Source of the DNA: Bacteroidia bacterium
GTDB lineage: Bacteria; Bacteroidota; Bacteroidia; J057
Reading direction: 5' to 3'
Length of the DNA stretch: 64,000 nucleotides
Assembly: GCA_033391075.1 (NCBI GenBank)
Contig: JAWPMV010000001.1
Span: 5,084,001 to 5,148,000, forward strand
Below, in pieces: positions 7,164 to 63,438 of the stretch (position 1 is its first letter; every line of letters begins with the position of its first letter). The translations under genes were made by a program, and so were the position numbers. The notes beneath the pieces were generated by a model, which worked only from the letters and a program-made list of their open reading frames with translations, did not search any database and was not told the origin of the DNA.

Positions 7164-7222
7164 AGGTATTCCTGTTAATTTGTCCATAAAAAGCAATCCA
7201 ACACACCTATACACAAACACGC

Positions 7223-8158: not shown

Positions 8159-8224
8159 GAGTAGAATTTCTTTTGGAAGAAATTAGGATTTTTTCCTGCC
8201 AGAAAAAAGGAGGGAAAGAAGGAT

Positions 8225-8253
8225 CAAGTTCAAGTTCAAGTTCAAGTTCAAGT
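8225..8253. repeat. Tandem hexanucleotide repeat, about 4.8 copies of CAAGTT
   Basis: Four perfect CAAGTT units and a partial fifth, in the intergenic region upstream of the dehalogenase start at 8158. It is not inside any reading frame I support. Its copy number may vary by replication slippage, but no promoter could be tied to it. Confidence 0.85.
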
Positions 8254-8308
8254 AGAACGAACTAATCCTCAGCAAAGCTTTCATTGCGAAGATCTAATCA
8301 GCACAGCT

Positions 8309-8344
8309 GTCATTGCGAGTTGGAATCTCCAGCGAAGCAATGAC
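8309..8344. repeat. REP-like palindrome with GTCATTGC/GCAATGAC arms
   Basis: Two 8-base arms (8309-8316 and 8337-8344) form a perfect inverted repeat around a 20-base centre. A second half copy (TCATTGCGAA) lies at 8281. The motif resembles the short extragenic palindromes found in many copies in some bacterial genomes. It lies between the ArsR gene end (8372) and the dehalogenase start (8158). Both genes run leftward, so it could also act as a weak transcript-end structure. Confidence 0.5.
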
Positions 8345-8371
8345 AAAGGTTTTGTTTTGGCCTAAGAAGAT

Positions 8372-8716
8372 TCATTCCTTCTCCGTATCTGGCTTTTGCT
8401 CAGCCTCCAGTTTATCCAGGTAATCACCCAAAGCATTGAGGCGTTCGGACCAGAATTTCTCCAAATTTCGGATATAGGCTTCCACCTCTTTCAATGCATC
8501 CAATTGAGGATAACAAATGCGCTGACGGCCATCTATTTCATCTGAACGAATCTCTAAAAGCCCGTGGGTTTCCAGCACTTTTACATGCCTGGAAACCGCC
8601 GGACGGGACATCCGAAATTTCTCTGCGATCACATTGACATGGCTGGGATTTTGGGAAACCATAAGTAGAATTTCCCGCCTCGTCGGATCCGCCAATGCTT
8701 TGAATACATCTCTCAT
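8372..8716 (-). CDS. ArsR-family winged-helix repressor
   Basis: 114 residues. The N-terminal two-thirds is a canonical ArsR winged helix: FKALADPTRREIL at the start and a recognition helix SRPAVSRHVKVLETHGLL. No metal-binding ELCVCDL-type motif is present, so it is the non-metal kind that usually sits next to SRPBCC (AHSA1) genes. It overlaps the upstream SRPBCC gene by 4 bases (ATGA), so it is translationally coupled and last in a three-gene operon. The tandem palindromes at 9728-9778, at the head of that operon, are its most likely operator, giving autorepression. The C-terminus (about 85-114) is charged and helical. Confidence 0.88.
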   Translation of the reverse strand: MRDVFKALADPTRREILLMVSQNPSHVNVIAEKFRMSRPAVSRHVKVLETHGLLEIRSDEIDGRQRICYPQLDALKEVEAYIRNLEKFWSERLNALGDYLDKLEAEQKPDTEKE

Positions 8717-9129
8717 TTCGCCAGATATTCAGGTAATAATTTGGTAAGTATTTTCCGTTTCCAGCCTGCTGCAAGGATATTTCTTGCGATCAGGCGATTG
8801 AATAAGCCTTCAAATCCTTTATGTTGAAAATCCAGTCGGGTTTCATTCCCCACAGCCGTCAATTCAAATACGACAATAGTACTCATGCTTTTTCCAGCAC
8901 TCCAACTAAAAGATAGCTTCTCTTCCTCCACAATTTCCAGGACCTCGCAATTCACAATACCGTCAAAATTCCCCTGAGGCTTGGTCTTGAACTGAAACTT
9001 ATGTCCGACTACAGGCTCAAAGTCTGTGGGCATCAACCATTGGCTGAGTGCCGTTTTATCTGTCAGGGCTTTCCAAACCTTTTGCACAGGATGTGAATAG
9101 GTCGTCGTGAGATTTATCGTTCGAGTCAT
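8713..9129 (-). CDS. SRPBCC / AHSA1-domain protein
   Basis: 138 residues forming a single START-like (SRPBCC) fold: the opening segment TYSHPVQKVWKALTDKTALSQWLMP is the usual AHSA1 beginning and the FELTAVGNETRLDFQHKGF strand its middle. These domains hold hydrophobic ligands in a deep cavity. When beside ArsR regulators they are thought to belong to a stress or ligand-response pair. The gene lies 5 bases after the membrane-protein gene and overlaps the ArsR gene by 4 bases, so all three are co-transcribed. Ligand unknown. Confidence 0.85.
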   Translation of the reverse strand: MTRTINLTTTYSHPVQKVWKALTDKTALSQWLMPTDFEPVVGHKFQFKTKPQGNFDGIVNCEVLEIVEEEKLSFSWSAGKSMSTIVVFELTAVGNETRLDFQHKGFEGLFNRLIARNILAAGWKRKILTKLLPEYLAK

Positions 9130-9134
9130 GCTTC

Positions 9135-9704
9135 TTAGGCAAAAGCCGCTTGAGGTTCAACAAGAGGGGTAAAAACATTTCTCAGTGTCCAAGATACGGC
9201 AGAAGCGGCCAAAAACCAGCCCAGCAACATATTTAGCAAACTCACCAATACATAAGGAGTTGAGAATCCCCACCAATTCCACATGGGGATGAGGTAAGAT
9301 AAAGCCGCTATCATCGCGATAATCATGACAAAACCTACCCTTTGCCAATGTCCACCCAAATTTACTTTTAGCAGGAGGAAACTAAGAAGAAACCATAGAC
9401 TTAGATTGATCAGTAGTTGGCCGCTCATAAATTTTCCCGGATTATAAAAGTCAGGGCTTTGTTTGGCCATAAAATACATGCTCTCTGTAGGTAAACCGGC
9501 TTCATTGCGCGTTTCGGGTCCATTGGGCCAAATGTACATGCCGCTCTCTTCCATATTTTCCATCAAAACCTTATTTACCGCCTCACTGGATTTGGGACTT
9601 TTATAGACTTTGCGGGGAAGGGGATTGATCCATTCAGTAGCCCCCCAGAAAAACAAAACCAGGGTTCCGATCAGTGTTCCTTTGATTAAATTCTTTGCAT
9701 TCAT
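9135..9704 (-). CDS. Small integral membrane protein of the ArsR operon
   Basis: About 189 residues. A hydrophobic N-terminal segment (LIKGTLIGTLVLFFWGATEW) is followed by a periplasm-like region of about 70 residues and then three further membrane segments (about 95-185). The family is not firmly recognised; it resembles uncharacterised membrane proteins found beside SRPBCC/ArsR pairs. An upstream in-frame start at 9734 is rejected because it would lie inside the first operator palindrome. It is the first gene of the operon, and therefore the one most directly controlled by the operator at 9728-9778. Confidence 0.7.
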   Translation of the reverse strand: MNAKNLIKGTLIGTLVLFFWGATEWINPLPRKVYKSPKSSEAVNKVLMENMEESGMYIWPNGPETRNEAGLPTESMYFMAKQSPDFYNPGKFMSGQLLINLSLWFLLSFLLLKVNLGGHWQRVGFVMIIAMIAALSYLIPMWNWWGFSTPYVLVSLLNMLLGWFLAASAVSWTLRNVFTPLVEPQAAFA

Positions 9705-9727
9705 GATTTTCTCATTTATCCATTTAT

Positions 9728-29243: not shown

Positions 29244-32200
29244 ATGAAACATCTATACTCAAGTACTACGCGAAAGATCTCAGGCTCTTATAGGAATTTA
29301 TTTTTACTGGTTTTCCTGATAGGAACCACAGCATTCCTTCCCATGAAGATTATGAATTATGGGATAAGCAATCCTTCTCCTATATCAGCCTACCTAAATG
29401 GTAATTTTCCAGATGAAGCACCTTCCAGTACTTCCTCATGGACTGCAGAAGTTGCCTACCCCAATCTTACCTTTACCGATCCTATTCAACTACTCGAATT
29501 GCCGGGAACCAATAAGTTCATCATGGCAGGTAAAAAAGGAAGACTCTGGACCTTTGACAAAGATCCCAATACGAATTCAAAAACAACGGTATTAAATATT
29601 GAATCCAAGATTCTGACCTCCGGTGATGCCGGATTGATGGGATTAGCCTTACATCCGGAATTTGGACAAGCAGCTTCTCCCAATCGGGGATACCTTTACA
29701 TCTGGTCCCGTCAAAAAGGACCTACCAGCAATGGCAACCTCGGCTATGTGATCCTTGCAAGATATAACTGGCCCGATGGAGCCAATACAATCGATGCCAA
29801 TTCCGAATTTGTTATGATCAGGCAATATGACAGACATCAGTGGCACAATGGAGGCGGCATGTTTTTCGGACTCGATGGATTTTTATACATCTCAAGTGGA
29901 GATGAAGGAGGAGCCAATGATCAGTACAATACAGGACAAAAGATAAATGTAGGCTTACTTGCGGGCGCTTTGCGCATAGATGTTGATAAAGACGCAAGCA
30001 GAAGCCATCCCATACGGCGACAACCGTTAAATCCGGCAACTCCTCCCAGTGGTTGGCCCAATAGCCTCAGTCAGGGCTATTATGTACCTAATGATAATCC
30101 CTGGCAGGATGTCAATGGTACAATACTCGAAGAATTTTATGCAATTGGTTTCCGCAGCCCACACAGAATGACCCAGGATCCTCAAACCGGTGATATTTGG
30201 ATGGGTGATGTCGGACAGGGTTCGCGCGAAGAAGTAAGTTTGGTACCGAAAGGCTCCAATCTGCAATGGCCCTATAAAGAAGGAAGCATCAATGGCCCCA
30301 AAGCCAAACCAGGAAATTTGATAGGATTCGATCAAGCTCCTGTCCATGACTATGCCAGAAGTGTAGGAACCTGTGTGATTGGAGGTTTTGTGTATAGGGG
30401 AAACAAATGGCCCAGCCTCAGAGGAAAATATATCTTTGGAGATCATACCACCCGTAGAGTTTGGTCCCTGGATCATAATCAGCAAAACGGCAATACTACC
30501 AAAGCAGATTTGGTAACCATTCCGGCTTTTGGTACGGGCAGCAAAGCAGGAATTTCTGCTTTTTCTACAGATGCTGATGGAGAAGTTTATATCCTGAAGC
30601 TCTATGGAACTAATCAGGACGGGGGAAGGATTTATAAACTCAATGCAAGTAACATCACGCCTGAGCCTCCCCAATTCCTTTCTCAAACCGGAGTATTCTC
30701 AGACTTAAGCGACCTTACTCCAGCAGCTGGAGTCATTCCCTATAAAGTAAATGCTCCTCTATGGTCTGACAATGCTACTAAAAAACGATGGGTAGCGATC
30801 CCTAATAATGGAAGCTATAATACTGCAGCTGAAGACGTAGTCTGGGCAGAAAATTCTGAATGGGAGTTCCCCGAAGGAACGGTTTTCATCAAGCATTTTG
30901 AAATGCCTTTAGATGAAGACGATCCCACAGTAATCAAAAGACTGGAAACTCGCTTTATCATACGGGATAAAAATGGGGGACTTTATGGCGTTACTTATAA
31001 GTGGAATGCCGCAGGCACAGATGCGGAACTTTTGCCGGGCGCGGATACAGAGCCTTACACCATTAGCAAAAGCGATGGAAGTACAGTCAACCGCGTATGG
31101 GACTTCCCAAGCAGAGCAGATTGCATGACCTGTCATAATGAAAATGCAGGTGGGATTCTCGGAGTAAACACCCATCAATTGAATGGAGAATTTGAGTATC
31201 CTTCCGGTATAAGTGACAATCAGCTTCGCACCTGGAATCATCTCGGCATATTTGATGTAAGCCTGAACGAGCCCGATATTCCTGGCTACATTCACACAGG
31301 AAACATCAATGACCCCAATTATAGCCTCGAAGAAAGAGTGAGGTCTTACCTGGATGGAAACTGTGCCCATTGCCACCAACCCAATGGAGTAAATGCCAAT
31401 TTTGATGCACAATTTACAACTGCAATCGGATCGCAAAATCTAATCAATGGTAGCCTACAGGGTTCCTATGGCATCCCAGATGCCGCTGTTGTAAAAGCCG
31501 GAGAAACCTCCAAGTCCATCCTGTATATACGAGACAATAGTGTTGGGAATGATGCGATGCCTCCCTTGGCAAAAAGTGTAATTGATGATGAGTACATCGA
31601 AGTTCTCGCAGCATGGATTGGCGACCTTGATCCCAACAATTGCCAGGGTACGACAACTACTTATCTATCCGACCTAAACTGGGTAGGAAGTCCAAGCAAT
31701 GGATGGGGGCCAGTAGAAAAAGACAGAAGTAATGGAGAGCAGGGAGCAACGGATGGAAATACCCTTACCATCAATGGCCAAACCTACAGCAAGGGACTAG
31801 GCGCACATGCAGATTCTGAAATCATATATAATCTTGCTGGCCAATACACACGCTTGCTTTCTGACATTGGCGTAGATGATGAAACATGCGCTTCCGGATC
31901 CGTAGGATTTGAGGTGTATACGGATGGCACGCTTGCATATAGCAGTCCGGTCATGACCCAGGCAGATAATGCGATTTCTATAAATATAGATGTTACAGGA
32001 GTAAATCAATTGAGGTTAGTAGTAAATGATGGAGGGAATGGTATTACCTGCGATCATGCAGACTGGGCGGATATTAGATTAGAAGCGGGATGTGCGGATA
32101 ATCAAGCACCTGTAACAGTATTCTCTGCCTCGCCAATAAGTGGCAATGGCCCACTAACGGTAAATTTTGACGCAAGTGCGACAACCGATCCTGAAAATGA

Positions 32201-32936
32201 CCCCATCACCACCTATAGTTGGGACTTTGGAGATGGCAATACGGGAACAGGATTAAGTCCTAATCATATTTACGGTACTCAAGGGACTTTCAGAGCTACC
32301 CTTACCGCTACCGATAATCAGGGCAACTCCAGCATCAACTTTGTAAATATCAATGTAGGTCCGGTAACAATCTTCCCGGTTGAGATGCTGAGTTTTACAG
32401 CCTCTGCTTTTGGAGAAGCGATTTCTCTGAGTTGGCAAACCGCTTTGGAACAAAACAATGAAGGATTCGAGATTCAACGCTTCAATGAAAGAAGCGAGCA
32501 ATTTGAAAAAATTGGCTGGATTCAAGGAAAAGGGGATACCCGGGATGGACATAGCTATCTATTCTTCGATACGGAAGTACGAGCAGGCAAGCTCTACACC
32601 TATCGTCTGAGACAAATCGATCTGGATGGGCAATTTACCTTCTCCGCTCAGGTCAGCGCTCAATTGGATGGCACGGGATTAACTGAACTCAAAGTTTATC
32701 CTAATCCGCTTGATCAGGAAGTATTGCATCTCGAACTTCTTGGAGTAGAAATCGAAGAATCGGTCTTTATTTCTCTCTTTGATAATACGGGCAGATTGGT
32801 ACACGAGAAAATTTTGAGCAAAGAAGCAGCTGAAAGCCGCGTGAGCCTTGAAGTAGGAAATCTACCGGGAGGTATTTATAGCCTGCAAGTGAGCAGTTCT
32901 AAATTCAGCAAAGTGCAGAAAATCATTGTGAGATAG
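29244..32936 (+). CDS. Secreted PQQ-type sugar dehydrogenase fused to diheme cytochrome, NPCBM, PKD, T9SS domain
   Basis: 1230 residues with a hydrophobic export signal in the first 40. Residues about 60-470 are a GSDH-type six-bladed propeller (LMGLALHPEFG, HNGGGMFFGLDGFLYISSGD, IWMGDVGQGSREE). Residues 490-800 match the SO2930-type diheme c cytochrome, with heme sites CMTCH (627-631) and CAHCH (707-711) and a Met ligand in DAMPPLAK. Then follow an NPCBM carbohydrate-binding domain (about 803-950), a PKD domain (about 953-1040), and a T9SS sorting domain (YPNPLDQEVL to end). It probably oxidises a polysaccharide-derived sugar at the surface and passes electrons through its own hemes. A paralogue lies next door at 33109. 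PQQ use is by family analogy. Confidence 0.85.
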   Translation: MKHLYSSTTRKISGSYRNLFLLVFLIGTTAFLPMKIMNYGISNPSPISAYLNGNFPDEAPSSTSSWTAEVAYPNLTFTDPIQLLELPGTNKFIMAGKKGRLWTFDKDPNTNSKTTVLNIESKILTSGDAGLMGLALHPEFGQAASPNRGYLYIWSRQKGPTSNGNLGYVILARYNWPDGANTIDANSEFVMIRQYDRHQWHNGGGMFFGLDGFLYISSGDEGGANDQYNTGQKINVGLLAGALRIDVDKDASRSHPIRRQPLNPATPPSGWPNSLSQGYYVPNDNPWQDVNGTILEEFYAIGFRSPHRMTQDPQTGDIWMGDVGQGSREEVSLVPKGSNLQWPYKEGSINGPKAKPGNLIGFDQAPVHDYARSVGTCVIGGFVYRGNKWPSLRGKYIFGDHTTRRVWSLDHNQQNGNTTKADLVTIPAFGTGSKAGISAFSTDADGEVYILKLYGTNQDGGRIYKLNASNITPEPPQFLSQTGVFSDLSDLTPAAGVIPYKVNAPLWSDNATKKRWVAIPNNGSYNTAAEDVVWAENSEWEFPEGTVFIKHFEMPLDEDDPTVIKRLETRFIIRDKNGGLYGVTYKWNAAGTDAELLPGADTEPYTISKSDGSTVNRVWDFPSRADCMTCHNENAGGILGVNTHQLNGEFEYPSGISDNQLRTWNHLGIFDVSLNEPDIPGYIHTGNINDPNYSLEERVRSYLDGNCAHCHQPNGVNANFDAQFTTAIGSQNLINGSLQGSYGIPDAAVVKAGETSKSILYIRDNSVGNDAMPPLAKSVIDDEYIEVLAAWIGDLDPNNCQGTTTTYLSDLNWVGSPSNGWGPVEKDRSNGEQGATDGNTLTINGQTYSKGLGAHADSEIIYNLAGQYTRLLSDIGVDDETCASGSVGFEVYTDGTLAYSSPVMTQADNAISINIDVTGVNQLRLVVNDGGNGITCDHADWADIRLEAGCADNQAPVTVFSASPISGNGPLTVNFDASATTDPENDPITTYSWDFGDGNTGTGLSPNHIYGTQGTFRATLTATDNQGNSSINFVNINVGPVTIFPVEMLSFTASAFGEAISLSWQTALEQNNEGFEIQRFNERSEQFEKIGWIQGKGDTRDGHSYLFFDTEVRAGKLYTYRLRQIDLDGQFTFSAQVSAQLDGTGLTELKVYPNPLDQEVLHLELLGVEIEESVFISLFDNTGRLVHEKILSKEAAESRVSLEVGNLPGGIYSLQVSSSKFSKVQKIIVR

Positions 32937-33108: not shown

Positions 33109-36100
33109 ATGAACAAATTTGCTTTGTCCACTATCTTTTCAGGCAAAAGGATTTCCCTCAATCTCAGCCTGGGATTGGTCTTTTTCCTTTCTCTCGCGGC
33201 TTTGCCTTTGTTTATGCCTCCTCCAGGTTTGACACAGGCAGAACCTATTGGGAAATTCCTCAACGGAAATCTGCCAGCCCTGACTCCGGGAGGAGGAGCA
33301 GATTTGGAGTGGGACAGTGAAATTGCCTATCCAAACCTGACGTTTGAGGAACCGATCTTTATGATCTCTCATCCTAGAGAAAGAAGATTGTATGTTGCTT
33401 CTCGTACAGGTTTGATTGAAAGCTTTGGAGATAGTGCCAATGTTTCGACCAAAGAACCCCTGATTGATCTCAGAAATCTTACGAGCGTGGTTCATGATGG
33501 TGGGATGCTGGGCATGGCTTTTCATCCTGATTTTGGAGACCCCACTTCCCCAAACAGAAATTATATCTATGTATATCATACCGTCAGAGGAGAAGATGGG
33601 AGGAGCGGACCTTTCGTTTGTGATGAACTTTGTTTCACCTGTTTCGACAATGCCGTATGGTATGGAAGTTATCTGAGACTTTCTCGCTTTACTGTTACGG
33701 ATGGAACTTATACGGCTGATCCTAATTCCGAGCAGGTACTCCTAAATATCCGCCAGTTGAACGGATCACATAGAGGGGGTGGAATCCTCTTTGGGAATGA
33801 TGGTTTTCTCTATCTGACAATTGGAGATCAGGCGAGATTTGATGGTGCCCAGAATATCGTTGACAACTTCGAAGGAGGAGCCATCCGTATCGATGTAGAT
33901 ATGCAAGGAGGACAGATCAGCCATCCTCCCAGAAGAATCCTGGGTGAACATGCAGGTTCTCTAGGCGAAATCAGTGGAATGGGATATTACATCCCAAATG
34001 ACAATCCCTGGCTCGAAGCTGACAGCAGCATTTTCGAAGAATTTTACGCCATCGGTCTACGGAATCCTCATCGTATGTCCATTGATAAAAATACCGGAGA
34101 AATATGGATAGGTGATGTGGGACATGCAAGCAAAGAGGAAATTGATGTTCTGGCCGGAGGAGCCAATTACGGATGGCCTTTATATGAAGCAAATGTAGGA
34201 CCGATCCCTCGTTGCAGCATCGATCAGATTGGTCGGGGGACCCTTACAGCCCCCATAGCCCAGGTAAATCGCTCTGAAGTAGAATGTGTGATTGGTGGCT
34301 ATGTATATCGGGGAGAGAAACACCCCAGCCTTTATGGAAAATATATCTATGGAGACTGTACCAGTAAACGGATTTTTGCAAGAGATACTGAAGGAGATTG
34401 GGAATTACTGATGAATTTCCTGCCCGCAGGTTCACTCATGACATTTGGAGAAGATTCTGATGGGGAAATCCTGATTGGTCGTCAAAATGGAAACACTACC
34501 CTCTACCGACTGAGTTCTCGAAATGCCAATCCGCCAGCCCCCGCTTTATTATCACAAACGGGAGCTTTCAAAAATCTAAATACCCTCGAAGCGGAAATAG
34601 GTGTCATTCCCTATGACATGATCGAAGATTTCTGGTCGGATGGTTCGGATAAGTATCGTTGGTTGGCCATCCCGAATGATGGAAACCCCGATACACCAGA
34701 AGAAAAGATCGGCTTCTTCAAGAATAATAATTGGGAGTTCCCCCTTGGAACGGTCTTCATCAAACACTTCGAACTGGGAGGCAAACGACTGGAAACCCGC
34801 TTTGAAGTACATGCTGACGATGGAAAATTCTACTACCTCACCTATAAATGGAACGAGGATCAGACTGATGCCAACTTACTCTTAGGAAGTCTGGATGAAG
34901 AGATTATGGTAAATGGAGCACCTCAGACTTGGCATTATCCCAGCCGTAGTGAATGTCTGAGCTGCCATCAATCCAATGCCGGATTTGTTTTGGGTCCCAA
35001 GACCCGATACCTCAATTCTTCCATTACCTATCCCCAAACAGGCGAAACAGCCAATCAGCTATATACCCTGAGTCATATCGGATTACTGAGTGAAGATATT
35101 TCTGAATTGGAAGTTGAAGAACTTCCGCGTATCCCTCAATTTGATGACAACTCTGTTGATTTAGAGGAAAGAGCTCGGGCCTATATAGACCTGAACTGTT
35201 CCTACTGCCATCAACCCGGAGCCAGCAATCGCGCGCAATTTGATGCCCGAATCAATACCCCTTTATCCCGACAAAAACTCATCTTTGGTGGCGTAAATAG
35301 TCCTTTGGGAATAGATGGAGCAAGAGTTATTAATCCTGCTAATCTTAATAGCTCCATTCTTTATCATAGGGTAAACTCCTTGCAAGAAGGGATAGCCATG
35401 CCTCCTTTAGCCAAAAATGAAATAGATCAGGAAGGAGTTGATTTACTAAATGCCTGGATCTCAGGTATGGAAAATCGGAACAATCCGGGAGGAACCGGAC
35501 TGTTTGCAACCTATTTCAGAGATAATAACTTAAGTATTCAGGCCTATACCCAAATCGATCCTGCTGTAGAGTTTAGTTGGAGTGAAGAGGGAACAGAATT
35601 CCCTCCTTCTCCAGATAATTTTTCCATTCGCTGGGAGGGGGAGCTTATTTCTATGCAATCTGGCAACTACACCTTCTTTGTACAATCTGATGAACAGCTA
35701 CGTCTGTGGATCGGCAGAGAGTTACTCATCGACACCTGGGATCAGGGAAGTCAGGAAGAACAAAGTGTACAAGTCAATCTTGATCAGGAAGAAAAATATA
35801 AAATCCGACTGGAATACCGGCATATCGATGGCCCTTCCAATATCAGTTTATCCTGGTCGGGGCCTGGCTTTAATAAAGAAATCATCCCTCGTTATCACCT
35901 CTTTCCGACTTCGGGAGACAACCTGGATTTAGGAGGAAGAGGCCTATTGGCAACTTATTTTAACAATGAAGACCTGACGAATGAAACCCTGCAAAGAATC
36001 GATCCACAAATCGCATTCGATTGGGGAGGTGGATCTCCGGATCCCAGCATTCTGGCACATACTTTCTCTGCACGCTGGGAAGGAAGCATAGAAGTCAGCA

Positions 36101-37452
36101 CCTCTGGAACTTACACCTTCTATACCCTCACAGATGATGGATGCAGGCTTTGGGTAAATGGAAAATTGATCGTTGATAAATGGGTAAACCAGGGAGAAAC
36201 CGAATGGGAAGGACAAATCGATTTGAGTGCAGGAGTGAGTATTCCAATCAAAATGGAATACTTTGAAAATGGAGGGAATGCATCCGCTCAATTATTCTGG
36301 AAAGGCCCTCGTTTTGAAAAACAAATTGTTCCCAAAAGTCATCTCTTTCCTCCTGGTGAGCAATCCCCCAATCGTCCTATTCCCCTTTGTATACAGGAAA
36401 ATGAAGGAGAATTCGTCATTGAAGCAGAAAACTACACTTCTATTTTCGGAGGAAAAGACAATGCTCAATGGAATTTCTGGTCAGAAGTCAATAATGGGGA
36501 TGCCAGCGATGGGAAAGCCATGATGGCCTCGCCTAATTTGGGAATCAGAGCCAGAGGCCTGGGAGGACCGAGGTTGGACTATGCGCTTTACTTTGAAGAA
36601 GCGGGAACCTACCAACTCTTTGTACGAAGCTATAAAGATCCCAATAGTGATGGTTCTTTTTTCATCGGTCTGGATGGTACTCCCCTGATGAGTCCCAATG
36701 GCAATGGTATGGGATATTCAGGTATTTGGAACTGGGAATCCTATGCCGATGGCAAATCTTTAGAAATCACCATAAAGGAAGCAGGAAAACATTACCTCAA
36801 TCTATGGATGAGGGAAGATGGTAGCCTTGTGGACAAATTCATCCTCAAAAAAGACTTTGAAAAACCAGAAGGCATCGGAAATCTTCAGGAAGAAAAATGG
36901 GATTGTGAAGACGAAACTGCCATTTTTAGTTTGCAGGAATATGGTCAAGATCTCTTGATTACCTGGAATTTGCATCCTCAGGGAGGTATTTACTACCAGA
37001 TTGAGCGTTCTGTAAATGGAGCACCTCATACTTTATTGGAAGAAGGGGGGCTACCTGCAAATTTTGCCAGTTTGTGGGATTTGGAACTCAGCAGCTTTGA
37101 GGGGGCCAAACTTCACTATAGAGTTCGTGCCTTTGATGAATTTGACAATCAGATTTTGGTATTGGGACAAGACCTTGATTTGAGTCAGTCTGTCGGCAGC
37201 TTTAGTTTCCAAACCTTTCCCAATCCTGTCAGCTACAATCTCCTGATCAATTATGACAATCCTTCCAGGGCTTCTATGCAGTTGCGGATTTTGGATATTC
37301 AGGCCAGGGAATTAAAGTATGCGACTATTGGAGAAGGAGAAAGAAATGGTAGCTTTGAATTTCCAATAGGAAATTGGAATGACGGCATCTACTTTATCAT
37401 GCTTTCGGATGGAGAAGAGGTGCAGACGAAAAGAATTTTAGTCAAAAAATAG
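33109..37452 (+). CDS. Second PQQ-type dehydrogenase/diheme cytochrome fusion with PA14 domains and T9SS domain
   Basis: 1447 residues with an N-terminal export signal. The first 790 residues parallel the gene at 29244: propeller (LGMAFHPDFG, GGGILFGNDGFLYLTIGD, IWIGDVGHASKEE) and SO2930-like diheme cytochrome with CLSCH (616-620) and CSYCH (697-701) and Met in AMPPLAKNE. The C-terminus differs: two PA14 domains (about 799-936 and 943-1084, GLFATYF and GLLATYF starts), a CBM-like domain from about 1100 (FVIEAENYT) to 1250, and a sorting domain in the last 80 residues. The shared core suggests gene duplication, with carbohydrate-binding modules swapped to suit another polymer. Surface oxidase in function by inference. 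Confidence 0.85.
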   Translation: MNKFALSTIFSGKRISLNLSLGLVFFLSLAALPLFMPPPGLTQAEPIGKFLNGNLPALTPGGGADLEWDSEIAYPNLTFEEPIFMISHPRERRLYVASRTGLIESFGDSANVSTKEPLIDLRNLTSVVHDGGMLGMAFHPDFGDPTSPNRNYIYVYHTVRGEDGRSGPFVCDELCFTCFDNAVWYGSYLRLSRFTVTDGTYTADPNSEQVLLNIRQLNGSHRGGGILFGNDGFLYLTIGDQARFDGAQNIVDNFEGGAIRIDVDMQGGQISHPPRRILGEHAGSLGEISGMGYYIPNDNPWLEADSSIFEEFYAIGLRNPHRMSIDKNTGEIWIGDVGHASKEEIDVLAGGANYGWPLYEANVGPIPRCSIDQIGRGTLTAPIAQVNRSEVECVIGGYVYRGEKHPSLYGKYIYGDCTSKRIFARDTEGDWELLMNFLPAGSLMTFGEDSDGEILIGRQNGNTTLYRLSSRNANPPAPALLSQTGAFKNLNTLEAEIGVIPYDMIEDFWSDGSDKYRWLAIPNDGNPDTPEEKIGFFKNNNWEFPLGTVFIKHFELGGKRLETRFEVHADDGKFYYLTYKWNEDQTDANLLLGSLDEEIMVNGAPQTWHYPSRSECLSCHQSNAGFVLGPKTRYLNSSITYPQTGETANQLYTLSHIGLLSEDISELEVEELPRIPQFDDNSVDLEERARAYIDLNCSYCHQPGASNRAQFDARINTPLSRQKLIFGGVNSPLGIDGARVINPANLNSSILYHRVNSLQEGIAMPPLAKNEIDQEGVDLLNAWISGMENRNNPGGTGLFATYFRDNNLSIQAYTQIDPAVEFSWSEEGTEFPPSPDNFSIRWEGELISMQSGNYTFFVQSDEQLRLWIGRELLIDTWDQGSQEEQSVQVNLDQEEKYKIRLEYRHIDGPSNISLSWSGPGFNKEIIPRYHLFPTSGDNLDLGGRGLLATYFNNEDLTNETLQRIDPQIAFDWGGGSPDPSILAHTFSARWEGSIEVSTSGTYTFYTLTDDGCRLWVNGKLIVDKWVNQGETEWEGQIDLSAGVSIPIKMEYFENGGNASAQLFWKGPRFEKQIVPKSHLFPPGEQSPNRPIPLCIQENEGEFVIEAENYTSIFGGKDNAQWNFWSEVNNGDASDGKAMMASPNLGIRARGLGGPRLDYALYFEEAGTYQLFVRSYKDPNSDGSFFIGLDGTPLMSPNGNGMGYSGIWNWESYADGKSLEITIKEAGKHYLNLWMREDGSLVDKFILKKDFEKPEGIGNLQEEKWDCEDETAIFSLQEYGQDLLITWNLHPQGGIYYQIERSVNGAPHTLLEEGGLPANFASLWDLELSSFEGAKLHYRVRAFDEFDNQILVLGQDLDLSQSVGSFSFQTFPNPVSYNLLINYDNPSRASMQLRILDIQARELKYATIGEGERNGSFEFPIGNWNDGIYFIMLSDGEEVQTKRILVKK

Positions 37453-38260: not shown

Positions 38261-38773
38261 GTGGACGCAGCGATTCTACAAACCATACTCTTCTGGATTT
38301 TTTCCCTACTGGGATTAGCCGGTGCAGTCGGACTTTTGATCAATAAAAATCCAGTCTATGCTGCTCTCTCTCTGATTCTTAACTTTTTCAGCATTGCTGG
38401 ACTATATCTGTCCCTTGGGGCCGAATTTCTGGCAGCTATTCAGATCCTCGTTTATGCGGGGGCCATCATGGTACTCTTTCTGTTTGTGATTATGCTCCTG
38501 AATCTTCAGGATGAGCAAGGCGTGTTGAAATACGACGCTCGTAGAGGAGCCGCATTCGTCATCGGCATTGCCTTTGTAGGAGAGATGATGTACATATTCA
38601 GAAGCTTCTTCGATGACTCAGTTTTGGGAGATTTCAAATACGGCTCCGTTGAGCCTATCGGTCGTCAGCTGATGACCAATTACCTTTTCCCCTTTGAGAT
38701 CATCTCTGTCATCCTTCTGGCTGCCCTGATCGGTGCGATTGTAGTAGCCAGAAAACACACCTATACTGATTAG
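38261..38773 (+). CDS. nuoJ: NADH-quinone oxidoreductase subunit J
   Basis: 170 residues with a GTG start (MDAAILQTILFWIF). Five predicted membrane spans; the AIQILVYAGAIMVLFLFVIMLLN helix with its kinked pi-bulge region is the family hallmark. A membrane-arm subunit of complex I. It is followed at 8 bases by nuoK and then nuoL, but no nuoA-I precede it: the neighbour upstream is kdsB. Confidence 0.92.
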   Translation: MDAAILQTILFWIFSLLGLAGAVGLLINKNPVYAALSLILNFFSIAGLYLSLGAEFLAAIQILVYAGAIMVLFLFVIMLLNLQDEQGVLKYDARRGAAFVIGIAFVGEMMYIFRSFFDDSVLGDFKYGSVEPIGRQLMTNYLFPFEIISVILLAALIGAIVVARKHTYTD

Positions 38774-38781
38774 CATTAAAC

Positions 38782-39120
38782 ATGGAAAATCTGATCCCTA
38801 CTACATACTCTTATTTGGCAGTTAGCGCGGTGATGTTTGCTTTGGGTATCATCGGAGTAATGACAAGAAAAAATGGAATTGTAGTATTCATGTGTATCGA
38901 ATTGATGCTCAATTCGGTAAATCTGGCTTTGGTTACCTTTTCAAAAATGTGGGAAGTAAACAGTCCGGAAACTACAGTTGGTGCAACGGGTTCGATGCTG
39001 GTATTCTTTGTTATGTGCGTGGCAGCGGCAGAAGCGGTAGTTGGCTTATCAGTGATCATTGCGCTTTTTAGAAACAAACTGGACATCGATATTAACAATG
39101 TAAATATATTCAAGTGGTAA
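38782..39120 (+). CDS. nuoK: NADH-quinone oxidoreductase subunit K
   Basis: 112 residues with three membrane spans. Carries the conserved Glu of the second helix region (MCIELMLNSVNLAL) and a second Glu in AAAEAVVGLSVIIALFR, both important for proton transfer. Preceded by nuoJ and followed by nuoL at 34 bases, one operon. Confidence 0.94.
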   Translation: MENLIPTTYSYLAVSAVMFALGIIGVMTRKNGIVVFMCIELMLNSVNLALVTFSKMWEVNSPETTVGATGSMLVFFVMCVAAAEAVVGLSVIIALFRNKLDIDINNVNIFKW

Positions 39121-39154
39121 TCATGCCACTTGTTGGACGTTAAACGCTCCCCGA

Positions 39155-41134
39155 ATGGAAGCTCTGTACCCTTTAATCATAATCATGCCCATGGTCGGCT
39201 CCTTGCTGATCGGACTGGGTGGGTTCTTAAATCCCGGATTACGCAAACAGGAGAGCCTGATAGGTTGGTTAGCTACCGCCTGTGTGGCTTTACCATTTTT
39301 GTTGATCCTTCATGCATTCTTCAACTTTGACCCCGCTCAGGGAGCTGTTAAGGTTGAATTGTTCACATGGATGCAAACAACAAGTGGATTTCAGATCAAT
39401 TTTGATTACCAAATAGATCAGCTTTCCCTGCTTATGGGAATGATCGTAACCGGTGTAGGATCACTGATTCATATCTACTCCATAGGCTATATGCATGGAG
39501 ATTCTGGTTATTATAAGTTCTTCGCTTATCTCAATCTATTTATCTTCTCCATGAATAACCTGATCCTGGGTGATAACATGGTGGTGATGTTCCTGGGATG
39601 GGAAGGGGTAGGACTATGTTCATATCTTCTGATTGGATTCTGGTTTGAAGATATGAATAAGGCGAAAGCAGCACAGAAAGCTTTTGTCGCTAACCGTATT
39701 GGTGATTTTGCCCTGATCATCGCTATGCTGATGATCTTTAATCAGATAAACTCTCTTACGTTTGCAGATATCGTAGTAGCTGATTTCGGAGAAAATACCT
39801 TCTGGATTGGCTTACTCATTTTTATTGCTGCAACTGGTAAATCAGCTCAGATACCTCTTTTCGTCTGGCTACCAGATGCGATGGCGGGACCAACTCCTGT
39901 ATCGGCCCTGATCCATGCAGCTACGATGGTAACCTCAGGTATCTACCTGATCACAAGGGTTCACCCTATCTTCCTCGCTGCTGAAGAAGTACTGATGATC
40001 ATAGTGGTAGTTGCTGCACTTACAGCGATTGTAGCGGCCTTTATTGCCATCGCACAAAATGATATAAAAGCAGTTCTGGCATACTCCACTGTTTCCCAAT
40101 TGGGCTTTATGTTCATGGCCCTGGGAGCAGGAGCATTCACCACAGCAATCTTCCACGTGATGACACATGCTTTCTTCAAAGCCTGTCTCTTCCTGGGTTC
40201 CGGTTCGGTGATTCATGCCATGGAACATATGCATACGGTCGATGATCCCCAGGATATACGAACGATGGGAGGCCTGAAGAAATACATGCCTTCTACTAGT
40301 CGAACCTTCTGGATCTCTACCCTGGCAATTTCAGGTATACCTCTATTCTCAGGTTTCTTTTCAAAAGATGAGATATTGAGTAGCCTCTTCTTTAGTGGAT
40401 ATGGAAATACCCTCTACTTTGTGGTTTGGGGAGTAGCCGTATTTACTGCTGCATTGACGGCTTTCTATATGACTCGGGTTACCTTCCTTACATTCAATGG
40501 CAAGGAGCGTTTCCCTCAGGAAAAACATCCACACGAAAGTCCTTCCATCATGACTATCCCCTTATGGATTCTTGCTGGATTGGCAACTGTCGGTGGCTTT
40601 CTGGGTATTACTCCTCTATTTGGACATATTCTTCATGTACCCCACGTCCTCAATGATAGCTGGCTTTCCAGTAATGCAGGGATGGGAGATGCAGGGGGTA
40701 TGGTAACCAATAGGGCTTCTATGATTACAGATATGCACCATCATGAAGCACTTGAGTGGTTCCTGGTGCCTTTCTCCATAGTCGTTGCAGTAGGAATGGT
40801 TTTATTCGCTTTCAGGTTTTACACACGCCATGATGTGGCAGGAGATCAAAAAGTGCAAAACTTCTTCGGAGGATTCTATACCGCTATGCAGAATAAATTC
40901 TACTTCGACGAAGTTTACAATAAATTCATTATCAAGCCTTTTGTTTGGGCAGGAACCAACCTCGTCCTATGGTTTGATCAGAATATCGTAGATGGTATTG
41001 TAAATGGAACGGCTGACCTTATATCCTCTATAGGAGACGTTTTCAAGAAATTGCAATCAGGTCTTGTATCCAATTACCTCCTACTGTTATCTGTAGGTGT
41101 AATCGTAATTATGACCTATCTGATCTTCGGATAA
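39155..41134 (+). CDS. nuoL: NADH-quinone oxidoreductase subunit L
   Basis: 659 residues with about 15 membrane spans. The antiporter-like core is visible: FLGWEGVGLCSYLLIGFWF, GKSAQIPLFVWLPDAMAGPTP, a Lys in LAYSTVSQLGFM, THAFFKACLFLGSG. The C-terminus has the long amphipathic helix and final membrane span (NYLLLLSVGVIVIMTYLIFG) of this subunit. No nuoM or nuoN follows: a terminator and then bshA come next, so the membrane arm is encoded in pieces elsewhere. Confidence 0.95.
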   Translation: MEALYPLIIIMPMVGSLLIGLGGFLNPGLRKQESLIGWLATACVALPFLLILHAFFNFDPAQGAVKVELFTWMQTTSGFQINFDYQIDQLSLLMGMIVTGVGSLIHIYSIGYMHGDSGYYKFFAYLNLFIFSMNNLILGDNMVVMFLGWEGVGLCSYLLIGFWFEDMNKAKAAQKAFVANRIGDFALIIAMLMIFNQINSLTFADIVVADFGENTFWIGLLIFIAATGKSAQIPLFVWLPDAMAGPTPVSALIHAATMVTSGIYLITRVHPIFLAAEEVLMIIVVVAALTAIVAAFIAIAQNDIKAVLAYSTVSQLGFMFMALGAGAFTTAIFHVMTHAFFKACLFLGSGSVIHAMEHMHTVDDPQDIRTMGGLKKYMPSTSRTFWISTLAISGIPLFSGFFSKDEILSSLFFSGYGNTLYFVVWGVAVFTAALTAFYMTRVTFLTFNGKERFPQEKHPHESPSIMTIPLWILAGLATVGGFLGITPLFGHILHVPHVLNDSWLSSNAGMGDAGGMVTNRASMITDMHHHEALEWFLVPFSIVVAVGMVLFAFRFYTRHDVAGDQKVQNFFGGFYTAMQNKFYFDEVYNKFIIKPFVWAGTNLVLWFDQNIVDGIVNGTADLISSIGDVFKKLQSGLVSNYLLLLSVGVIVIMTYLIFG

Positions 41135-57085: not shown

Positions 57086-57114
57086 CTGAGTACGTGAGCA
57101 CTAAATATGCTACC

Positions 57115-57855
57115 ATGATAAAATCCGTAATACTCGACGACGAAAAGCACTCGGTGGAGACCCTTAAATGGAAAATCGAGAAGTTCTGCCCGGAAGTGGA
57201 AATCGTGGCAACATTTACCAATCCCGAAGAAGCCTTTAATTTTCTTCAAACTGCGAATATCAATCTCTTGTTTATAGATATTGAGATGCCTCGCATGAAT
57301 GGTTTTGAGGTACTTCGAAATCTGGGGAAAGTAAATTTTGATGTCATTTTTACTACCGCCTATGATGAATTTGGGATCAAAGCCATCAAATTCAGTGCGC
57401 TGGATTATTTACTCAAACCCATCCAGACCCAGGAACTTGGACAAGCTATAGAAAAGCACAAGCAAAAATCAGCTCAGCAGATTAGCTCAGAACAACTCAA
57501 AGTACTCTTCAGCAATATAAAAGAAGACAATGAAGCCCCTATAAAGATCGCCTTAGCGACCAAGGAAAGTATAGAGTTTGTCCAACCTCATGAGATCATT
57601 GCCTGCGAAGCAGATAGCAATTATACCCGTGTCTTTCTGGCAGACGGGAGAAAGAAACTCATTTCGAAAACCCTCAAGGAATTTGAAGAACTTTTGGGGG
57701 AACATCATTTCTTCCGCTCTCATCACAGCCATTTAGTTAATACCAACCACATCAAGGAATATGTCAGAACAGAAGGTGGCTATCTGCTTATGACGAATAA
57801 ACTTTCCGTACCCGTCTCCAGATCCAAGCGAGAAGAGATCCTGCGGTTATTCTAA
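57115..57855 (+). CDS. LytTR-family response regulator
   Basis: 246 residues from ATG at 57115 (a GTG at 57094 is an unlikely alternative). Receiver 1-120 with D55 in FIDIEMPRMNG and Lys in LLKPIQTQEL; linker; LytTR DNA-binding domain about 145-245 (ACEADSNYTRVFLADGRK, FFRSHHSHLVNTNHIKEYV). LytTR domains bind pairs of short direct repeats on one DNA face. The two matching repeat pairs at 53681 and 57923 are its proposed targets. It is cotranscribed with the kinase; a terminator follows at 57877. Confidence 0.94.
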   Translation: MIKSVILDDEKHSVETLKWKIEKFCPEVEIVATFTNPEEAFNFLQTANINLLFIDIEMPRMNGFEVLRNLGKVNFDVIFTTAYDEFGIKAIKFSALDYLLKPIQTQELGQAIEKHKQKSAQQISSEQLKVLFSNIKEDNEAPIKIALATKESIEFVQPHEIIACEADSNYTRVFLADGRKKLISKTLKEFEELLGEHHFFRSHHSHLVNTNHIKEYVRTEGGYLLMTNKLSVPVSRSKREEILRLF

Positions 57856-58014: not shown

Positions 58015-59382
58015 ATGGATAATTACGAACAAAGCCCACAAGCGGAAGAAAAGAAAGATGCCCCCAAGGTTACTTATGTCGGCATGAATCAATCCTTTCC
58101 CTGTTACGACCCCAATTATAGCATCCTCGATGTGTCGATTGAAGAAAGGATTTCTCACGTTCACGAATGTGGCGGAAATGGAAAATGTACGACCTGTCGG
58201 GTGCGGGTATTGGATGGAATGAACAATCTAAGTCCTAAAACGGCCCTGGAGAAAGAGATTGCCCACAAAAGGAAATGGGATCATGGTATTCGCCTCGCAT
58301 GCCAGGCCAAACCCAAGGGCGATGTCGTAGTACAAAGGTTGGTCTGGTCCAGTGCGGAGATTAGCCAACTGCAGACGGAATTTATAGGAGATTCCGGAGG
58401 AGAGGAAAGAGAAATTATCATCCTTTGTTGTGATCTGAGGAACTTTACAGAAATCACCAGTCAGAACCTGGTTTTCGATATGGTGCATATGCTCAATCGT
58501 TTTTACACCTTACTGGGTGATCCCATTTTGGTAAACAATGGCATCATTTATCAGTATGTTGGCGATGAGATTGTAGGCATCTTTGGAACAGCTGGCGGAG
58601 ATGTGGAGAAAAATTGCACCGATGCTATACGAGCAGCATTGGGTATGCAATATGCCCTGGAAAGGCTCAATCAATTTGAACTGAAAGACCTGGGCAACCA
58701 GTTTGACATAGGGATAGGTATCCATTATGGCAAAGCCTACCTCGGACACATGGGCCACCCCAAACACAGACAATTTGCAGTCATTGGCGATCCCATCAAT
58801 ATTGCCAATAGAATACAATCCGAAACCAAAGAAATCGAATCCAAAATCCTGATCTCAGAAGACTTTCTTGCAAAGTTGCCGGATGGTATACTTGAATTGA
58901 AGGAGGAAATGGATTCAACCTTAAAAGGAAAAGAAGACAGTCTGAAGCTCCATGGGGTTAAATCTTTCCGCAAACCCGATATGAATCTGGAAGTACAAGC
59001 TTCTCTGAGTGTTTTATTGAAAGATGAGGAAGGTTTTGCCGAAAGTTTTTACAAAAGGGTATTCGAGAAGGCTCCACAGGTTCGCTCTATGTTCAAAAAC
59101 AATATGACTATCCAGGGCAGACTTCTGACGCATATGCTTGGAGGAATAGTCTATAGCCTGAGTAGACCCGGACACTTGAAATTAGGCCTGAAAAGTTTAG
59201 GAAAAAACCATGCTAAATATGGGGTAATGCCCGCACATTATCCGGTGGTAAAAGAAGCCATGCTCGAAACCATCGAAGCTGAAATGGGAGATTTATACAA
59301 TGAAAACATCGGAGCAGCATGGACCCAGGCATTGGACTTCGTTCTTATGCACATGATACAGGGACATATGAGTAAATTCTGA
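58015..59382 (+). CDS. [2Fe-2S] ferredoxin - class III cyclase - globin fusion
   Basis: 455 residues from ATG at 58015 (an upstream TTG is unlikely). Residues 15-110: plant-type ferredoxin with C52, C58, C61 and C96 (CGGNGKCTTC, then RLACQ). Residues about 125-310: class III adenylate/guanylate cyclase with metal Asp in ILCCDLRNFTEI and VGDEIVGIFG, and VIGDPINIANRI. The Thr/Ser usually before VIGD is Ala, so base specificity is uncertain. Residues about 320-455: flavohemoglobin/Vitreoscilla-like globin (FYKRVFEKAPQVRSMF) with distal Q367 and proximal H399 in NHAKYGVMPAHYPVV. Likely a cytoplasmic second-messenger enzyme gated by redox state and O2/NO. Its promoter carries the LytTR repeat. Confidence 0.85.
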   Translation: MDNYEQSPQAEEKKDAPKVTYVGMNQSFPCYDPNYSILDVSIEERISHVHECGGNGKCTTCRVRVLDGMNNLSPKTALEKEIAHKRKWDHGIRLACQAKPKGDVVVQRLVWSSAEISQLQTEFIGDSGGEEREIIILCCDLRNFTEITSQNLVFDMVHMLNRFYTLLGDPILVNNGIIYQYVGDEIVGIFGTAGGDVEKNCTDAIRAALGMQYALERLNQFELKDLGNQFDIGIGIHYGKAYLGHMGHPKHRQFAVIGDPINIANRIQSETKEIESKILISEDFLAKLPDGILELKEEMDSTLKGKEDSLKLHGVKSFRKPDMNLEVQASLSVLLKDEEGFAESFYKRVFEKAPQVRSMFKNNMTIQGRLLTHMLGGIVYSLSRPGHLKLGLKSLGKNHAKYGVMPAHYPVVKEAMLETIEAEMGDLYNENIGAAWTQALDFVLMHMIQGHMSKF

Positions 59383-61248: not shown

Positions 61249-63438
61249 CTAATTGATTTCTATCCGTTTTATCAGGTATACTTGTCGATTTCTGTTTTCA
61301 ATCCTCAGGAGATACATCCCCAGGGCAAGTTCTCCCAGATAGAAACTGTTTTCTATTTCTTTTAGCTCTTTCCTCATAATTTCCTGGCCCATCATATTGA
61401 GTAAAAAAGCCTGTGTTCCAGCCAAAAGTTGATCTTCAAAATTGACATTCAATCGGTCATGAGCGGGATTTGGGAAAACGCTTAGCCGCATTTCTTCGGG
61501 CCAGCGCTCCCCGATACCCGTCACCCAGTCATTGGTAGCCTTGAACGTAGGGCTCCCAGCCAGAAAGTTTCCACTTCCATTGGGCTTTCTGGCAAAGGTC
61601 TGATTGGAGCTTTGGGCTTCATAGCTCAGTGAATCCAGGATCGTGTTATTATCCATAAGGATAATGGATTCACCTGCTTTTGAAAGTTTAAAGTTTGCGT
61701 GTAATCCCTCCTGGCCTTCATCATTGTCAGCCCAGATAATCATATAGGCGTGTGGACCTAATCGAGTTCCTGCAGGAAAGGCCCATTTTTGAGGGTTCGA
61801 AATATTGTCGGATAGGTACGCATGAGAAAGATCAACCTCCGATGAGGTCGTATTGTATATTTCTATCCAGTCATCATACTCTCCATTTGCATCTGCAAGT
61901 CCCGAAAGGGAATCACAGGAAGCACAAAATTCATTGATTACCACTTCCCGAAAAGAAAGACTTGAATTCAGTTGACTGCAATCATACAAATTTCCTAACT
62001 GCATGCTATGTTCTGCAATCCGAGAACCGATAAAGCGCTTTAGACCGGGAATGGTATCATTGCCCTGATCCAGATCGCCTTCAAAGTTCTGCAAGCTCCA
62101 GGGGTAATTTACATCTGTCTGTATGTGGGGTCTAATCAGATTCCCAATCGTATCAATGATGGGAAATAGTCTTTCTGTGGTAAAGTTATCTTCCAGCAAT
62201 CGACACCAGGTCTGATAGTAAATTTCATTGTATTCAGGTACTGCAAGAAGTCGATTGATAAGCACCTTTGAAGAGGTGTCCATATTTACAGGAAAAGTCG
62301 GATAGCCGAAAGGAAAACCTCCCCCTCCACCCAGGGTATCTCCATTTGACAGTCGGGTATATAAATCCTGACAAATCCCATCCCAACCAATATAACAACA
62401 GGCTTCGTCCAGGCTCATAACCTCCTGTAAAATGGTATCCTCGGGAGGATAAGGAACGGATCCATTAATTACTGTCGGGCATTGAGATACGGCAAGGGAA
62501 TCTTTGCGAAGAGAATCCGGGGGATTTGGATCTTCTCCGGCAGAACTAAAAGTTCCCCCCATAGCGAGATTATAATCCCAGGGAATCCATTGAAACTTCC
62601 CGGAATTGGGGTTCTCATACATATAAAAGTTCCGCCCATGCTCTATATAAGAATCCCAATTAGAAGTGGCGACATCCACTGCCAGAACTTTCAGGTATAA
62701 TTCTACATCAAATACCTGTGCAATGGCATCTTTAAAATCCTGATCGGAACTATTGTTCAGGACATCCAGCAAATTGACAAAGCGATTCCAGGCACCTGCC
62801 CTTGCTGGAGTTTTCAATTCGAACTCCTGTTGGTATAGGCTAGTGTCCCTTCCCTGCCAACTCAAATCCGAATTGCCCATATTCTTGAAGAGATTTCCCT
62901 CATCTGTCCCAAAGTTTTCATCCAGAAACGTTCGGTCTATTTGCTCCACCAATAAATAGAGCCCCCAATAAGTCCCATTCAAATAGACCTTTGCATAAGC
63001 AGTACGGGGTACCTTTACGCCTGAATTCCTCAAAATATCATAGCATAATTTATCTCGAAGAATAGCAGGATCTCCTTCTCCATTATTGAGGTTAATCTTT
63101 TTGAGTCCATCATATTTCTTTCCACTGACATATTCATTGAAGTCTAGTTTGATGGATTTTTTTGGGGTTGCGATGAAAGTAGAGGAAAAGCCCTTTAGGC
63201 GTACCCCGATGGAATCGAGAATTTCCCCATCTATCACAGCATTGGCCATGATATAGGGAATGTTGGGATAGTTGTTTTCATAATTGTCACTCAGGGTAGT
63301 CCAAAAATCAGAATCACTGAAGCTGAGTTGAATTTCATGGACTATGGCATCATCAAAAATTTGTTCTCCCTGGCCTAGTAGGTTATAAAAGGGAAAACAT
63401 AGCCATAGGAGCAAAAAGGCAGAAGTAGATCTGGTCAT
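61249..63438 (-). CDS. Secreted CotH-kinase-family protein with lamin-tail and T9SS domains
   Basis: 729 residues with signal peptide (FLLLWLCFPFYNLLGQ). Residues about 25-500 are a CotH domain: IVHEIQLSFSDSDFW, RLKGFSSTFIATPKKSIKLDFN, KINLNNGEGDPAILRDKL, YWGLYLLVEQID and the later FQWIPWDYNLAMGG. Residues 500-635 are a lamin-tail domain (VVINEFCASC, YDDWIEIYNTTSSEVDLS), and the last 80 residues are a T9SS sorting domain (VFPNPAHDRLNVNFEDQ). CotH proteins in spores and in some bacteria are atypical secreted protein kinases. Substrate unknown. Confidence 0.85.
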   Translation of the reverse strand: MTRSTSAFLLLWLCFPFYNLLGQGEQIFDDAIVHEIQLSFSDSDFWTTLSDNYENNYPNIPYIMANAVIDGEILDSIGVRLKGFSSTFIATPKKSIKLDFNEYVSGKKYDGLKKINLNNGEGDPAILRDKLCYDILRNSGVKVPRTAYAKVYLNGTYWGLYLLVEQIDRTFLDENFGTDEGNLFKNMGNSDLSWQGRDTSLYQQEFELKTPARAGAWNRFVNLLDVLNNSSDQDFKDAIAQVFDVELYLKVLAVDVATSNWDSYIEHGRNFYMYENPNSGKFQWIPWDYNLAMGGTFSSAGEDPNPPDSLRKDSLAVSQCPTVINGSVPYPPEDTILQEVMSLDEACCYIGWDGICQDLYTRLSNGDTLGGGGGFPFGYPTFPVNMDTSSKVLINRLLAVPEYNEIYYQTWCRLLEDNFTTERLFPIIDTIGNLIRPHIQTDVNYPWSLQNFEGDLDQGNDTIPGLKRFIGSRIAEHSMQLGNLYDCSQLNSSLSFREVVINEFCASCDSLSGLADANGEYDDWIEIYNTTSSEVDLSHAYLSDNISNPQKWAFPAGTRLGPHAYMIIWADNDEGQEGLHANFKLSKAGESIILMDNNTILDSLSYEAQSSNQTFARKPNGSGNFLAGSPTFKATNDWVTGIGERWPEEMRLSVFPNPAHDRLNVNFEDQLLAGTQAFLLNMMGQEIMRKELKEIENSFYLGELALGMYLLRIENRNRQVYLIKRIEIN

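Follow-up and report, generated by a model that had tools for sequence, protein, structure and literature searches.

A conserved ferredoxin-cyclase-globin protein of Bacteroidota, assembled from known modules

A [2Fe-2S] ferredoxin domain (Fer2), a class III cyclase and a globin are joined in a single chain encoded in the window, by which we mean the whole 64,000-nucleotide stretch of a Bacteroidia bacterium genome that was analyzed (GCA_033391075.1, contig JAWPMV010000001.1, positions 5,084,001 to 5,148,000). Judged by sequence, this triple is real and conserved, mechanistically suggestive, and assembled from known modules. The window protein is probably a soluble, heme-containing class III cyclase that senses redox state and gas, that is, an analogue of CyaC in which a C-terminal globin replaces the membrane heme module. 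Sequence and structural model together support the domains, their order, the intact ligand and catalytic residues, the ancestry shared with CyaC and the conservation of the family, and we infer joint control of cyclic-nucleotide output by redox state and O2/NO.

The reading frame is open throughout from an ATG at 58015 to the stop at 59382 on the + strand and encodes 455 residues (Table 1), with an in-frame TTG at 57991 as an alternative start that would give 463. Pfam matched Guanylate_cyc at residues 133-308 (E 1.6e-16), Globin at 344-444 (E 4.1e-13) and Fer2 at 23-101 (E 9.2e-12), all above the gathering score, and no further Pfam domain at E up to 1. NCBIfam gave partial likeness only, for example to the ferredoxin regions of reductases and to the globin part of Hmp, with every score far under its cut-off. 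AlphaFold2, with 57 rows of the homolog set as input alignment, returned a confident three-domain chain (mean pLDDT 91.9, pTM 0.89) with Fer2 to about residue 110, a helix at 113-123, the cyclase at about 130-318 and globin helices at 323-454; about four residues separate the last cyclase strand (309-318) from the first globin helix (323-334). A chance or artefactual ORF was ruled out by the one uninterrupted frame and by 75 distinct relatives with the same architecture.

An earlier note, made from the sequence alone, had read these three domains in one chain and had named C52, C58, C61 and C96, a proximal H399 and a distal Q367. The profile search that it proposed for 2Fe-2S, Guanylate_cyc and globin domains found all three over the Pfam cut-offs, and each residue was confirmed by sequence or alignment. 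It had also stated that the lack of a globin fold at 320-455 would count against it; residues 318-455, folded alone with 46 relatives (47 of the 72 globin segments in all), form a globin with a pLDDT of 90.9 and a pTM of 0.85.

Table 1. Coordinates in the window of the triple protein, its parts and the upstream gene.
Feature	Coordinates	Strand	Evidence
Fer2 - class III cyclase - globin protein	58015..59382	+	Single ORF, 455 aa
Fer2 domain, residues 23-101; ligands C52, C58, C61, C96	58081..58317	+	Pfam and Cys conservation
Helix 113-123 linking Fer2 to cyclase; invariant L119 and E122	58351..58383	+	AlphaFold2 helix, conservation
Class III cyclase catalytic domain, residues ~130-318; D140, D184, N262, R266, Q180, A255	58402..58968	+	Pfam, alignments, fold match, conservation
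C-terminal globin, residues ~323-455; Y346 (B10), Q367 (E7), H399 (F8)	58981..59379	+	Pfam, own fold and fold searches, conservation
LytTR response regulator upstream, 159 nt gap (context only)	57094..57855	+	Pfam

Conservation was assessed in 83 homologs, window protein included, that were aligned after removal of duplicates (L039, equal to L002, and L106, equal to L032; L001 is the window protein itself). The globin part is present in 77, of which 75 are full length, L058 and L110 being N-terminally incomplete ORFs that count among the 77 only, and six Fer2-cyclase proteins that lack the globin (L033, L034, L109, L111-L113) were excluded from the triple counts. Identity to the window protein among the 77 triples starts at 35% for the fragment L110 and 38% for L032 and reaches 59%. 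When 57 homologs were scanned with Pfam, the cyclase was matched in 57, Fer2 in 56, the globin in 53 and all three in 52, the exceptions being the N-terminally incomplete L110 (no Fer2) and four Oceanospirillum proteins (no globin).

Both the sequence family and the four Cys ligands, spaced CX5CX2CX34C in the window protein, identify the N-terminal domain as a [2Fe-2S] Fer2 domain. The ligands are invariant in the 75 of 75 triples that cover these columns (2 of the 77 triples are N-terminally incomplete). The matches listed in the fold search of the full-length model were all cyclases, and the Fer2 domain is assigned by sequence. The helix at 113-123 is a candidate transducer element between Fer2 and the cyclase, and structural alignments to OaPAC and 6fht begin at model residues 118 and 114, respectively.

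The catalytic domain has the fold of class III cyclases (PF00211), with Spirulina CyaC (1wc1_C, Z 26.8, rmsd 1.6, 188 aligned), CyaB (3r5g_B, Z 26.4) and the guanylyl cyclase Cya2 (2w01_B, Z 26.3) tied in VIA-align. All four residues that we take, from class III motif roles, to be the metal aspartates (D140 and D184) and the transition-state residues (N262 and R266) are present in the window protein. Among the triples covering each column, D140 and D184 are each found in 76/76, N262 in 77/77 and R266 in 76/77, L062 having Lys. Of the two positions presumed to specify the purine, 180 is Gln in all 76 triples that cover it and aligns with Lys in CyaC and CyaB and with Glu in Cya2, and 255 is variable (32 Ser, 30 Ala, 13 Thr, one Cys and one Gly; Ala in the window protein). 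Synechocystis Cya2 and Spirulina CyaC, which rank among the top matches of the catalytic domain by both structure and sequence, have Glu and Lys, respectively, where the triples have Gln, and their PDB chains comprise the catalytic domain only. S. meliloti CyaC has Lys/Thr at the purine positions, against Gln/Ala in the window protein, and the globin-less relatives have Lys (four), Glu (one) or Asp (one) in place of Q180. Within the homolog set, the presence of the globin coincides with Gln at the base-selecting position. The Lys with Asp/Thr pair of adenylate cyclases is replaced by Q180/A255, and since Gln stands for the purine-specifying Lys, we do not assert the label 'adenylate cyclase' and give the product as cAMP and/or cGMP. 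A Gln/Asn pair occurs in a characterized cyclase, Rv0386 of Mycobacterium tuberculosis.

In both fold searches of the globin model, the best 50 matches were globins or globin-bearing chains. The first Foldseek match was Hell's Gate globin I (3s1i_A, E 4e-7), which tied in VIA-align (Z 20.9, rmsd 1.4, 130 aligned) with neuroglobin (7ohd_A, Z 21.1), and the closest PDB globins by sequence were HGbRL (3wfw) and then Hell's Gate globin I (3s1i). Y346, F360, Q367 and H399 are invariant in 77/77 triples. The globin fold together with His F8, Tyr B10 and Gln E7 places the domain in the F/M (flavohemoglobin-type) family, and the Pfam scan of the window protein found no FAD/NAD reductase domain of flavohemoglobins. 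The NCBIfam Hmp score of 43.8, against a cut-off of 432, likewise indicates a protein other than flavohemoglobin (Hmp). The sensor globin of S-family globin-coupled sensors is N-terminal, whereas this one is C-terminal; Protoglobin was not matched in the window protein at E up to 1 and was matched weakly in 1 of 57 homologs (E 5.2e-4). Parts of PMC4476040 report that HGbI, with Tyr29(B10)/Gln50(E7), binds O2 with very high affinity and autoxidizes slowly, that Tyr B10, Gln E7 and His F8 are conserved in the flavohemoglobins HMP and FHP, which draw electrons from their reductase domain, and that ligand binding in multi-domain globins of the group is proposed to rearrange loop CE and helix E, perhaps shifting the neighbouring domain. 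By analogy, such a rearrangement may be a signal route in the window protein as well.

The closest known system is CyaC. In a search of plasmid records, residues 34-328 of the window protein matched the annotated S. meliloti cyaC gene (30.9%, E 4e-39), and in the alignment of the two proteins Fer2 and cyclase are collinear, with the four Cys and the catalytic residues common to both. By sequence, the Fer2-cyclase part shares ancestry with CyaC. According to parts of PMC10463352, S. meliloti CyaC has six transmembrane segments (6TM), two heme b and a [2Fe-2S] cluster, and its cyclase responds to the quinone redox state, being activatable after oxidation. The two proteins are alike in carrying Fer2 directly before a class III cyclase, and CyaC already combines heme, Fe-S and cyclase in one chain; however, heme in CyaC sits in a quinone-responsive membrane anchor, as those parts describe, and the predicted heme site of the window protein is the C-terminal globin. 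The N-terminal region of CyaC, with its 6TM di-heme-b anchor, is absent from the window protein, in which a crude scan found no hydrophobic 19-mers versus four in S. meliloti CyaC. Parts of PMC4821796 describe 30 bacterial class IIIb cyclases in which a ferredoxin stands between the catalytic domain and an anchor resembling cytochrome b. The class IIIb cyclases of the Rhodopseudomonas palustris Q132R4 cluster likewise have the ferredoxin directly before the catalytic domain, but they are membrane anchored, and a term search of PMC4821796 gave no mention of a globin.

Other proteins resemble the window protein in their globin or heme. Flavohemoglobins, VHb and the Hell's Gate globins share the globin fold and the Tyr B10/Gln E7/His F8 pocket, but in the window protein the FAD/NAD reductase is missing and the globin forms the C-terminal end of a cyclase fusion. 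HemAC-Lm, a heme adenylate cyclase of Leishmania, is similar in being an O2-sensing soluble adenylate cyclase, as parts of PMC12755159 state. This protein is eukaryotic, is not known to carry a ferredoxin domain and differs in domain order. Chimeric globins described in parts of PMC1457004 and PMC3287990 are the flavohemoglobins and globin-coupled sensors with diguanylate cyclase, chemotaxis, kinase or STAS partners. Globin-coupled sensors of the S family (HemAT, globin diguanylate cyclases) and Methylacidiphilum HGbRL also pair a globin with an output domain, but with the globin N-terminal in the parts of PMC1457004, PMC3287990 and PMC4476040 that describe them, as opposed to C-terminal and with a class III cyclase as output in the window protein. 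No description of a ferredoxin-cyclase-globin protein was found among the matches listed by full-text searches of the open-access literature, some of them aimed at other subjects. Vinogradov's later reviews of bacterial globins reportedly may include such chimeras.

The earlier note knew of no described protein that combines all three domains. This stands for the architecture itself in the open-access literature searched, although a chain with heme, [2Fe-2S] and class III cyclase was already known in S. meliloti CyaC. The architecture survey that it suggested revealed a widespread family of 75 distinct full-length proteins. Uniqueness to the source genome was ruled out by relatives across Bacteroidota and beyond.

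The 75 full-length triples, window protein included, form one group in the tree with a support of 100/100, apart from the six Fer2-cyclase proteins (81 rows, midpoint root). Long branches (L034, L033, L032, L102, L097, L092 and the window protein) make the deep branching order unsure, and the tree tool warned of possibly false joins for both L102 and L097. Carriers belong to Saprospiraceae, Lewinellaceae, Flavobacteriaceae, Cyclobacteriaceae and other Bacteroidota, with two Variovorax isolates and one Polyangia MAG (Myxococcota) in addition, and the L032 protein is identical to L106, a Rhodothermales entry. The simplest reading of these sequences would be a single fusion origin with wide, patchy spread. 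A full-length relative was present in 1 of 12 other genomes of the source genome's own family (G010, 61%). Of 395 genomes drawn evenly from the phylum, three had the triple (the window's own, G173 and G394) and two others a Fer2-cyclase without globin, and 12 of 299 Flavobacteriaceae genomes had a match spanning query residues ~16-447. Scanning a species-genome collection with an alignment of four triples yielded at least 79 loci, a lower bound given that the scan was filtered by two peptide patterns, and scanning its contigs with the window protein alone as query gave no matches. Among plasmid records, 167 match at E 1e-20 and none cover 80% of the query.

Two observations concern individual members of the homolog set. 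L093 comes from a MAG labelled Thalassovita (Alphaproteobacteria), and its triple nests among Bacteroidota sequences, which suggests a mis-binned contig. The Oceanospirillum Fer2-cyclase proteins (L109, L111, L112 and L113; 600-657 aa) have ~290-340 extra C-terminal residues with no Pfam match at E 0.001, perhaps another module in the globin's place.

No conserved operon partner was found across loci; the context varies, and one arrangement recurs. In this arrangement, a divergent TPR histidine kinase (c1) and a LuxR-type regulator (c2) lie upstream and an FAD/berberine-type oxidase (c3) downstream, with Pfam identities that rest on the L049 copies only. It is complete in 13 of 76 loci, all from Flavobacteriaceae or Algoriphagus, with c2 in 16 loci and c3 in 14. 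Neighbourhood ORFs came from a longest-ORF caller that missed the L100 homolog, so that 75 loci were really laid out. A NifJ-type pyruvate:ferredoxin oxidoreductase (PFOR; c11, Pfam identity from L069) is encoded on the same strand in 4 of 76 loci, all from related Flavobacteriaceae, directly upstream in L066, L069 and L081 and further upstream in L078, and might supply electrons to the ferredoxin domain. As in the window, a LytTR regulator (Pfam) precedes the relative in L002 on the same strand, with a gap of 308, and such a regulator is a candidate partner at most. Beside the triple gene of L069, a 1126-aa hybrid of TPR, HisKA, HATPase, receiver and class III cyclase domains is encoded at 6338-9718 (-) (Pfam, L069 only), with a member of its cluster, of 1125 aa, in L081.

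The source genome holds 33 matches to the cNMP-binding domain PF00027, 32 of them over cut-off, and possible readers of a cyclic-nucleotide signal therefore exist. Searching this genome with the whole window protein gave 24 matches, most of them, among the matches listed, to the cyclase part, which makes the triple one of many class III cyclases in the genome; its globin is the only PF00042 match there. Elsewhere in the window, nuoJ-, nuoK- and nuoL-like ORFs (named by eye; PF00361 in the last) lie at 38261-41134 without other nuo genes adjoining, and six further PF00361 matches elsewhere in the genome suggest that the complex I operon is split. Two neighbouring genes at 29244-32936 and 33109-37452 encode long secreted proteins whose starts resemble each other, sugar dehydrogenase/heme-binding-like by eye, the second with extra parts, and there is a 729-aa secreted CotH-kinase-type-like homolog with a C-terminal sorting tail (by eye) at 61249-63438 (-).

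A link to NO was sought in denitrification genes. NosZ was over cut-off in 18 of the 36 carriers searched overall. It was not significantly commoner in Flavobacteriaceae carriers (17/27) than in the family sample (70/149, p 0.146), of which at least 8 genomes are themselves carriers, some identical to carrier-set genomes; with the 8 known carriers removed from the sample, the comparison was 17/27 versus 65/141 (p 0.141). NirK was over cut-off in 0/27 carriers, with five weak matches, in a search that covered carriers only. Given that no firm association with NosZ or NirK emerged, NO is no likelier an input than O2 or redox state.

Class III cyclases work as dimers, and the triple would likewise dimerize via its cyclase domain. 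The N-terminal [2Fe-2S] domain, coupled by the short helix, would act as the redox switch common to CyaC-type cyclases, and the globin would bind heme via H399, with a Tyr(B10)/Gln(E7) pocket like that of tight O2 binders. It would then signal O2, NO or the heme redox state to the cyclase, either directly or by electron exchange with the Fe-S cluster, and the product, cAMP and/or cGMP, would be sensed by cNMP-binding proteins. Relative to CyaC, the Fe-S redox switch would have been retained and the heme module swapped for a gas-binding globin.

This reading was weighed against others. The globin could be mainly an enzyme, to which the ferredoxin would feed heme electrons for the turnover of NO (as an NO dioxygenase) or O2, with the cyclase reporting electron flux and not ligand binding. 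The conserved flavohemoglobin-like Tyr B10, Gln E7 and His F8, known from HMP and FHP in parts of PMC4476040, and the [2Fe-2S] domain in the same chain would suit such an enzyme, as would the PFOR genes upstream in 4 of 76 loci. These four loci, however, are so closely related that they count as about one occurrence, the chain has no reductase domain and no conserved reductase neighbour, and neither the lack of NosZ enrichment nor the lack of NirK over cut-off in carriers favours this role, which we consider unlikely. We give still less credit to a simple CyaC-like redox cyclase whose globin has no sensing role and serves, for example, as a dimer or stability module. Homologous Fer2-cyclases do exist without a globin (L033, L034, four from Oceanospirillum and rhizobial plasmid proteins), but the invariance of the heme-pocket residues in all 77 triples, down to 35-42% identity, argues for selection on heme function, and the globin is the sole PF00042 member in the genome. 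It is highly improbable that the cyclase has degenerated and the chain serves in electron transfer or O2 storage: Gln in place of Lys/Glu at the purine-specifying position in 76/76 triples would fit a loss of activity, but both metal aspartates and the transition-state Asn are invariant and the Arg is kept in 76 of 77.

With a soluble redox- and gas-sensing cyclase as the preferred reading, we tentatively raise a bolder version, about which we have more doubt than confidence. The triple might be a self-contained gas/redox coincidence detector, in which the [2Fe-2S] cluster re-reduces the heme of the same chain, output depends on both electron supply and O2/NO, and the Gln shifts purine choice in an unusual way, towards cGMP or a cAMP/cGMP mixture. 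If so, control of a class III cyclase by a C-terminal globin of the flavohemoglobin type would be, as far as the open-access literature searched goes, without precedent.

To our knowledge, cyclic-nucleotide signalling in Bacteroidota has been little studied. In the literature searched, control of a cyclase by heme and [2Fe-2S] is described for membrane-bound CyaC-type enzymes, of which the triple family would be the soluble globin version. Present in cultured strains, among them Eudoraea adriatica DSM 19308, and predicted to be soluble, this family would allow the coupling of Fe-S cluster, heme and cyclase to be measured in one purified protein, and it points to C-terminal sensing as a possible role of F/M-type globins.
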